Of a stretch of DNA of 64,000 nucleotides, positions 25,443 through 42,366 are shown piece after piece. The notes below the pieces were generated by a model. It was not told where the DNA came from. It was given only the letters and a program-made list of their open reading frames with translations, and did no database searches. Location: the NCBI GenBank assembly GCA_964019415.1, contig OZ025885.1, forward strand, positions 2,792,851 through 2,856,850. Reading direction: 5' to 3'. The number at the start of each line of letters is the position of its first letter. The stretch's first letter is position 1. Both the position numbers and the translations under genes were made by a program. Source of the DNA: Ianthella basta (Eukaryota > Porifera > Demospongiae > Verongiida > Ianthellidae).

Positions 25443-27992
25443 CTAATGCATGCAATGAGTGGAAGCACATTGTTCTAGCATTTCAGCCAAAGGGGTAAGT
25501 ATGATGGCTATGTTGGTTTGCTTCTTACTTGAGGCCATGCTGTGAAGGGCTATAACTGCAAGCCCATCTGTTGTAGCACCTTGTGTGTGCAACGTTTCAG
25601 CAACTACTACTGGACTGCCAGAAGATGAAGGCAAGGTGCATGCATCATGATACAGGAGATACTCCTTCCCTTTCACTGCAGATAAAAAATTCAGCGATTT
25701 ATTGATTAACTGCATAAGTGGTATGCAATTGCATTCACTCCCACACTAGCCTTGTACCCAGGCCTTTGATAACAAATGAAGGCCTGGTATATACTGTTTG
25801 CGTGCATAATTGTAATGTGGATGTGACATAAAATGGCGTCGATATGTATTATGCATTGCATACTCTAGTGCCTCGTACCTTGTAACTAGGCCTTCACAGC
25901 CGCAGACCACTAGGGAAGATACGAAATGAAGCTTCCTTTCTCCCCGACCCTTCAAAGGCCTGAGAACAAGGCAACGTGCACCCTAGCCTCATACCCAGGC
26001 CTTCGAGGCAGCGAAGACCTGGATATGAGACTACACACACTGCAAGTAAGCGTTGTATGGCCAAAGTGTTGGTTTCAAACTTGGCTAGAGGCACCAGAGT
26101 TTGCTGACTGTGCAAGACTTTAATCTAGATGTCAAAGCATTCGTATGTGATTTTGTCATCTTACGTACTTGTCGTGACATGGAGGAATACTGGAATATCC
26201 AATTTTAACCAAAAGTAAGTTGCACAAGTGCAAACGGTGCATACCAGTTTAAACAAGTATTTCATGTTAAAAACTTGTGGGGCTGCCGCCCCAACTTGAA
26301 ACACTTGCTCCTTTCGGTTGCTGCTGTCACTCATGATTGGTAAACATGACACTGTGTCATACACCTCAGTGACAGTACACGCACACCACTGTCACCAGAT
26401 ATAGCTACATGACACACACACACACACACACACACACACACACACACACACACACACACACACACACACACACACACACACACACACACACACACACACA
26501 CACACACACACACACACCATGCCACACCACACACACAAGCACAGAGAAATCTCCAGTACAGACACATGACTGCTTACAGCACATGCAATCTTACAATGAG
26601 TATTTACAGAAACATAATGTACCAAGGAACCCACAGTCGCGAGAGTAGCTAGTGTTCTGTGATAGCAACAGCTATGTACGTTTGCTACAGCACAGTACAC
26701 GTGAGCCAGGTTCTGAAGAGCAAGGCAACCATGCAAGCTAGGCTTTTCAATGCTAGAAACGATTGAAGAATGTTAGCACACAGTGACCTAAGGCCAGAGT
26801 GATAGGTGACAGGATTTCATGAAAGAGACACATGTATCATTATATGAACTAATATTCAATTAGGATGTGCCTGTACGCTGGACAGGACTGGACTACTGGA
26901 CTGCCATAATTTAGACAAAAGAGTATTTATGTATCTACGACATCATAGTCCATGGTCCATCATCTTGTGTTTTGGTATAGCTACATGCGTGATGTGCACA
27001 TTGGGGGGGGGGCTTGGTATGTGCATATAGGTGTGCCTATGTGTGTGTGTGTGTGTGTGTGTGTGTGTGTGTGTGTGTGTGTGTGTGTGTGTGTGTGTGT
27101 GTGTGTGTGTGTGTGTGTGTGTGTGTGTGTGTGTGTGTGTGTGTGTGTGTGTGTGTGTGTGTGTGTGTGTGTGTGTGTGTGTGTGTGTGTGTGTGTGTGT
27201 GTGTGTGTGTGTGTGTGTGTGTGTGTGTGTGCATGTTGCTACAATCAGACGTAGGCAGTTTCAATAATGATGCATGCATGAGGATGTTACAACTATGTAA
27301 ATATTGTCATAATTATGATCTGCAGCTGACTTCCCGAAGAACACAATCATACCTTTCTCTCCTTTTATTCTACCACTGGAGAATGACAGTGGGCGTCCTT
27401 CTGGGAATCCAACAATAGTGACATAGTAGTCAATCCACGCCTCCTCTGGTCCACCTTGTCTGTTCCTAATGTACCGCATTGCAGATAAGGGCACTGGGTG
27501 GATCTGGCCTCTCAAGGCTTCTTCATTCACATGTAAAGCTACCATATCAAACTCCTTAAAGAAAAGGACAAGGCAACTGGAAATGATCTAGAGCTCCATC
27601 TTAATCAATTAAGCCAGCTTGTACATAGCAGTGATCACAAACTACTTAACACATACCTGCTTCCCTATAGGCCTTTCGTTCAGCAGGAGATCACTTCCTT
27701 TCATCTGACCATTCTTCATGAAGTGAGAAAAACGTATCATACATTCTTGTTCTCTAGATCTCTTCCAAAGAGCAGTAGCTGAAAATTTTTCATTCTTTTT
27801 TGTTTCAAAAGTGTGCCAGCATGTCACAAGGTACAAGTTACCGCATTTTTCGCCAATGAAGCCAGTTCCTGTCCCATGATAATCAATTAGACAAACGGAT
27901 GACTTTAGCTCATCCCATTTACTGCCTTCCACCAATTTATTCCCTTTCCATTTCGGCAATTCCTTCTCATTGAAACCAACATCAGGTTGTTC
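25443..27992 (-). CDS. Trypsin-like serine protease domain exons (27992-27657, 27554-27353, 25675-25443)
   Basis: Three exons in matching phase. The first has SSVCLIDYHGTGTGFIG, then NLYLVTCWHTF: the GTGF strand and a catalytic His (VTCWH, as in VTAAH). The second has EFDMVALHV with the catalytic Asp. The last has YHDACTLPSSSGSPVVV with the catalytic Ser in SSSGSPV, close to the SSGSPV form seen in FAM111-type and trypsin_2 proteases. The domain ends at TAG 25445-25443, after LAEMLEQ. No signal peptide is present, so it acts inside the cell. The substrate is unknown. The long (GT)95 and (AC)n arrays lie in the intron before the last exon. Confidence 0.8.

Positions 27993-42366: not shown

Follow-up and report, generated by a model that had tools for sequence, protein, structure and literature searches.

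The exons of an RNA helicase and those of a trypsin-like protease lie one after the other on one strand of this locus, and the question is whether they belong to a single gene and, if so, what the fused protein would do. The window, which is the whole stretch of 64,000 nucleotides that was analysed, corresponds to C18:2792851-2856850, and the genome searched comprises 209 Mb in 96 contigs.

Gene model and predicted domains

From the genomic sequence we assembled a minus-strand gene model that runs from window position 42366 to 25443, with 19 exons, GT-AG ends in 18 of 18 introns and compatible phases. The presence of introns indicates that the source is eukaryotic, and it is probably an animal. 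The predicted product has 1676 aa with exon 7 and 1640 aa without it, the frame being open both ways, and in the model a single frame leads from the ATG through the SF1 helicase to a Trypsin_2 domain. We call this gene B. Further copies of it, named A, C and D, are found on the same contig and on the same strand, and they are described below; the model of C was built by following B exon by exon. The exons of B and the evidence for each are the following:

42320..42366, minus strand: exon 1, start codon ATG at 42366; the ATG and the GTGAGT donor are also in paralogue C
40285..41872, minus strand: exon 2, N-terminal region and ZNFX1-like pre-helicase stretch, the latter collinear with the ZNFX1 of the same genome
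39989..40179, minus strand: exon 3; splice sites conserved in C
39673..39901, minus strand: exon 4; gene model and comparison with C
37193..37473, minus strand: exon 5, helicase motif I (GPPGTGKT); model, Pfam and comparison with C
36941..37091, minus strand: exon 6; gene model and comparison with C
33762..33869, minus strand: exon 7, doubtful, with a weak acceptor; frame intact if skipped
32045..32300, minus strand: exon 8; gene model and comparison with C
31759..31916, minus strand: exon 9; gene model and comparison with C
31451..31675, minus strand: exon 10, motifs II (VIEEAG) and III (GDYKQIGP); model, Pfam and comparison with C
31044..31292, minus strand: exon 11; gene model and comparison with C
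30176..30373, minus strand: exon 12, region of motif IV (SPYRAQ); gene model and comparison with C
29998..30084, minus strand: exon 13, where motif V starts; gene model and comparison with C
29531..29701, minus strand: exon 14, motifs V and VI; model, Pfam and comparison with C
28459..28559, minus strand: exon 15, start of the linker; present in C and also in copy A
28159..28378, minus strand: exon 16, carrying the linker stretch NVINLQIQHTGGDVHVSINQ; A and C also have the phase-0 donor intact
27657..27992, minus strand: exon 17, first half of the protease with GTGTGF and the predicted catalytic His (VTCWH); model, Pfam, C and alignment of relatives
27353..27554, minus strand: exon 18, predicted catalytic Asp (EFDMVALH); model, Pfam and comparison with C
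25443..25675, minus strand: exon 19, predicted catalytic Ser (PSSSGSPVV) and stop; model, Pfam, C and exon-19 comparison

A counterpart of exon 7 was sought in copies C and A and none was found. The linker stretch NVINLQIQHTGGDVHVSINQ (28159-28378) is the same in B and C, and A differs from them there; it looks beta-prone by eye and may be an assembly motif. Upstream of the gene and on the same strand, the ORF at window positions 43379-43750 reads like an exon of an HMG-CoA lyase gene.

Regarding the domains, the 1676-aa chain matched AAA_12 (E=4.4e-35) and AAA_11 (E=1.8e-24) in Pfam, both above the curated cut-offs, as well as Trypsin_2 (PF13365; E=1.8e-7, 32.5 bits against a cut-off of 27.6). 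The protease part on its own matched Trypsin_2 with E=9.1e-9, and that of paralogue C with E=6.7e-10, the bit scores being 32.5 and 36.6 for B and 40.3 for C. In the numbering of the 1640-aa form the helicase motifs come in order (GPPGTGKT at 686, VIEEAG at 1007, GDYKQIGP at 1034, LSPYRAQ at 1185, TVDEFQGHERD at 1215 and VAVSRQKRA at 1251), these strings being SF1 motifs I to VI, and the protease motifs follow downstream (GTGTGF at 1424, VTCWH at 1440, EFDMVALH at 1497 and SSSGSPV at 1580). Motif and alignment place a His-Asp-Ser triad in the protease, in a register taken from sequence and not from structure. The original prediction of SF1 helicase motifs followed by a full triad in phase-compatible exons was therefore borne out by the GT-AG model and by Pfam, and the profile search of the C-terminal part against peptidase families, which had been proposed as a check, placed Trypsin_2 above its cut-off. 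A phmmer search of the PDB with the protease gave nothing significant (best E=0.37), and a structure model of exon 17 alone, built from 5 sequences, reached a mean pLDDT of 45.5, too low to be informative. The protease is plausibly intracellular, judging from a reading of the N-terminus and from its position in cis with the helicase.

Relatives of the helicase and of the protease

When the PDB was searched with the helicase, the best match was 9q9z (E=1.4e-52), the entry for NFX1-type zinc finger-containing protein 1, and SMUBP-2 and NAM7 came next at E=2.8e-32. In blastp against L002, a ZNFX1 located on contig C14 of the same genome, residues 396-1264 (~870 aa) aligned with 25% identity, and the alignment was collinear from the pre-helicase stretch through motif VI. 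Furthermore, motif II of the window gene is of the EEA type, as in the ZNFX1 of its own genome. L002 contains PF25396 (E=7.4e-35) and, by eye, NFX1-type Cys/His repeats in its tail. In the window gene, however, a 401-aa piece had no match to PF25396 at E<=10, and the linker showed neither a Pfam match to zinc fingers nor, by reading, a Cys-rich repeat. Since Pfam missed the repeats that are visible in L002, the absence of zinc fingers in the window gene rests on reading. A PF01422 search of the genome yielded 11 places with E<=1, of which 2 were over the cut-off and none lay on C18 or C14; as nothing was found on C14 either, this search is insensitive here. An ARM-type fold had no Pfam match among the 25 matches listed, nor in the 401-aa piece.

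Thus, the description of the gene as ZNFX1-like stands as far as homology is concerned, but the gene departs from a plain ZNFX1 in having neither a PF25396 match nor fingers. We read it as a putative divergent member of the ZNFX1 family, to which it is nearest among PDB chains and in blastp, and not as ZNFX1 itself. In the predicted chain the protease occupies the place of ZNFX1's zinc fingers.

A six-frame search of the genome for PF25396, in which exons are not joined, found 5 places, all of them on C14; they are clustered at C14:3086046-3140823 in uninterrupted frames of 1837-2217 aa. AAA_11 had 89 matches in the genome, many of them clustered on C17 and C7 (also C3 and C11), and the seven AAA_11 ORFs that we read on C7 and C17 (L001, L003-L008) have a motif II of the IIDEA type, unlike the window gene.

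Regarding the protease, 12 of the 14 matches to the linker-protease part at E<=1 in its own genome were on C18, and the other two had E=0.079 and 0.33. Trypsin_2 was found at 26 places of the genome at E<=1, in a search that does not join exons; as it did not pick up B and C, other split copies could escape it as well. The 8 of these 26 places whose ORFs we read are separate genes: none of the 8 ORFs had a helicase, one being HtrA-type and seven looking secreted by eye. Single-exon Trypsin_2 clusters lie at C7:7464344-7486152 and C10:2163852-2298041, where the seven that were read have this secreted look.

In protein-database searches, the linker-protease part was found within none of the long proteins (0 of 3633 at E<=0.001 and 0 of 7025 at E<=0.01). 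The protease alignment gave at least 6 matches among the 8000 candidates scored, where P0001 corresponds to the exon of the window itself, the others (P0002-P0006) being single-exon fragments. Their identity to B was 64% for P0002 (on a 2.5 Mb ENA contig), 45-46% for P0003-P0005 and 57% for P0006, which corresponds to the last exon. The predicted protease is thus present beyond the window's assembly, where it is known as single exons only. The intron-derived leader peptide before the exon of P0002 is nearly as in B, and therefore P0002 may be B in another assembly. With such a leader and an exon identity of only 64%, it possibly comes from another haplotype or a sister species, and its divergence hints at a high diversity of exon 17.

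A fusion of a ZNFX1-family helicase with a trypsin-like protease was not named among the literature matches listed, whose scope stops short of preprints, most subscription papers and Blasi et al. 2022. As modelled, the domain pairing is real and unusual.

Copies on contig C18 and alternative explanations

Copy C is at C18:2892155-2874948 and its start is ~57 kb from the start of B (2835216). We found in it 18 of the 19 exons of B, with GT-AG in 17 of 17 intron end pairs, a conserved start codon and an open frame of 1642 aa without a stop, and the strings of its triad are VTCRH, EFDLVAL and SSSGSPV. The lengths of the three protease exons in B and C are 336/345, 202/211 and 233/233, the differences being multiples of three. 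Copy A (2749781-2736051) has the helicase, the linker and the phase-0 donor of exon 16, with no protease exon in the ~20 kb downstream, and D consists of the last protease exon alone, at 2758327-2758094. In a scan of all six-frame ORFs of at least 25 aa in 203 kb, the profiles of exons 17 and 18 were above the inclusion threshold in C and B only, and that of exon 19 in C, B and D only. As A is without a protease, D is a lone exon and in B and C both parts are joined, the protease was lost or gained among the copies.

Pieces of a second tandem family lie interspersed among the helicase genes, on the same strand (C18:2733308-2725404, 2871283-2862817, 2790869-2777273 and the window at ~54.8-62.6 kb). 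We asked whether the KH-like fragments next to A and D could be parts of the helicase genes and set this aside, their relatives being at several places of the contig and seemingly belonging to the other tandem family; a splice from A into this family is possible. One of the two fragments scanned gave sub-threshold matches (Vigilin KH E=0.027, KH_1 E=0.17) and the other gave none.

Between B and C the protease exons differ in 125 of 762 aligned bases (254 codons). For exons 17-19, dN was 0.172, dS 0.235 and omega 0.73, with a bootstrap range of 0.46-1.22 and 10% of 400 resamples at or above 1; therefore, purifying selection on the protease is not clear for this pair. The omega of the other blocks was 0.46 in exons 1-2, 0.30 in exons 3-6 and 0.67 in exons 8-14 (helicase core), and it was 3.65 in the linker exons 15-16, where dS is merely 0.014. 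We also simulated 125 neutral substitutions, after which the protease frame was free of stops in 166 of 20000 replicates, all three triad residues were retained in 5749 of 20000, and the mean protease identity was 67% (72% observed). Since the triad survives neutrally that often, its presence in both B and C is by itself weak evidence and, the two identities being close to each other, the argument rests more on the conservation of frame and length. Over 67 codons, D had dN/dS of 0.33/0.78 against B and 0.25/0.69 against C, and these lower ratios suggest that exon 19 has been under constraint for longer. In exon 17 (27657-27992 against C18:2877166-2876822) the identity of B and C is 80.9%, with 96.9% and 91.2% in its flanking introns; exon 18 has 92.6% and the stretch after it 87.6%. 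This dip in exon 17 suggests fast evolution or gene conversion.

The Gly in GxSG shapes the oxyanion hole, and a Ser in its place may weaken the activity. At this first position P0006 has Gly, whereas B, C and D all have Ser, so that B does not have the oxyanion Gly. The predicted catalytic His is invariant in the 5 aligned exon-17 rows (B and P0002-P0005), and the Ser is present in 4 of 4 sequences of exon 19, among them P0006 with the standard GSSG. When the protease was compared in hhalign with four trypsins encoded in this genome, the Ser half alone was aligned (73 columns, probability 90%).

One alternative that is compatible with a fused gene structure is a pseudoprotease, which would act as a binding or dimerisation module. 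It would explain why B, C and D have Ser at the oxyanion position, as well as the relaxed or fast divergence between B and C, and there is a precedent in the trypsin effectors of bacterial vWA-MoxR conflict systems, nearly all catalytically inactive according to PMC7159879. Nevertheless, the motifs of His, Asp and Ser are conserved in B and C, and the His and the Ser are also kept in all the aligned relatives just mentioned, including one with the standard motif. We consider a pseudoprotease unlikely, and it seems rather probable that the protease is catalytically active.

Equally unlikely, in our opinion, is that the fused protein is active but has a housekeeping or small-RNA role instead of being an immune effector, which the fused gene structure would also allow. 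C. elegans ZNFX-1 acts in heritable RNAi, as stated in PMC9276528, whereas the tandem copies, the variable presence of the protease and the divergent exon 17 resemble conflict genes, which is indirect evidence.

A very improbable explanation is that of two adjacent genes that were duplicated together, the first encoding a ZNFX1-family helicase whose end is the linker and the second, immediately after it, an intracellular trypsin-like protein. Copy A, a helicase without a protease, and D, a protease without a helicase, would fit it. Furthermore, B has an ATG directly 5' of exon 17, whose Met is shared by P0002, and there is a Met in exon 15, so an internal start is conceivable. However, the same place before exon 17 reads ATG-TAG in C, which argues against a separate protease gene starting there, and three of the four relatives on other contigs (P0003-P0005) show a Gln without an adjacent Met ahead of exon 17, the fourth, P0002, having Met-Gln as B. 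The first Met within exon 17 falls past the catalytic His in both B and C. In A, B and C alike, exon 16 is free of stops and its donor is in phase 0, and intron 16, the one that separates linker and protease, is short (166 bp in B, 160 bp in C), leaving scant space for a separate promoter. Thus, the protease exons are almost certainly part of the helicase gene as far as genomic sequence can tell, and the fusion in one gene that had been predicted is well supported by the exons, splice sites, frame and triad of paralogue C.

Finally, a decaying pseudogene array, to which the orphan exon D, copy A without its protease, the doubtful exon in B and the linker and protease omegas not confidently below 1 could be attributed, is hardly credible in view of two full-length frames (1640 and 1642 aa) with all their splice sites, the rare survival of the frame in the neutral simulation and the dN/dS of 0.30 in exons 3-6.

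Proposed function and known systems

The best explanation, and a very probable one, is a fused protein that is functional as such, predicted to consist of a ZNFX1-family SF1 RNA helicase, a linker and a chymotrypsin-fold Trypsin_2 domain. Its N-terminal part and helicase core would bind RNA with ATP, and this step would alter the conformation or the assembly state of the protein. The tethered protease would thereby be released or dimerised, and its substrate would be a partner, an RNA-bound protein or the fused protein itself, the cleavage being a step of cell-autonomous defence. We infer the RNA binding, the ATP hydrolysis, the protease activity, their coupling and the immune role alike.

This control of a tethered protease by RNA and ATP is proposed on the basis of two known proteins. 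ZNFX1 is a dsRNA-binding antiviral factor that acts through partners, and its ARM and P-loop parts are required for the binding of poly(I:C), according to PMC11959080; FAM111A, whose protease belongs to PF13365, is described in PMC9798293 as acting both in DNA replication and in defence against viruses. An RNA-controlled immune effector is a tentative reading, to which we give somewhat less than an even chance. Its boldest form would be an animal RNA sensor with a cis-linked protease switched on by RNA, where exon 17 outpaces its flanking introns under the pressure of viral proteins and a direct immune pathway leads from RNA to proteolysis, and this we regard as rather doubtful. The helicase-protease chain offers a simple and testable hypothesis of how RNA handling by the ZNFX1 family could lead to an output.

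Among known systems, the window gene resembles ZNFX1 in its SF1 core, the nearest in the PDB, its collinear pre-helicase stretch and its EEA motif II. It differs by having a Trypsin_2 domain and neither NFX1-type repeats nor a PF25396 match, and separate ZNFX1 genes are present on C14.

Flavivirid NS3 also has a chymotrypsin-fold protease and an RNA helicase in one chain, for the processing of the viral polyprotein. In NS3, however, the protease is N-terminal and the helicase belongs to SF2, and we claim no sequence relation.

FAM111A and FAM111B, like the window gene, have a C-terminal Trypsin_2 (PF13365) on a larger cellular protein, and they have an antiviral link (PMC9798293). They differ in having UBL domains and a PIP box of their own and no helicase, the protease domains having their Pfam family in common.

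The trypsin-NTPase conflict systems share the joining of an NTPase module to a trypsin-like domain, as presented in PMC7159879 and PMC8195603. It is also described there that TRADD-N domains of metazoans occur in fusion with helicases, DDX60 and Mov10 among them, and "ZNFX1" has 0 occurrences in the main text of either paper. The NTPases there are of the STAND or MoxR type, or death-type adaptors are involved, unlike in the window gene. If the proposed reading is true, the sensor-plus-protease logic of bacterial conflict systems would be placed in an animal RNA helicase.
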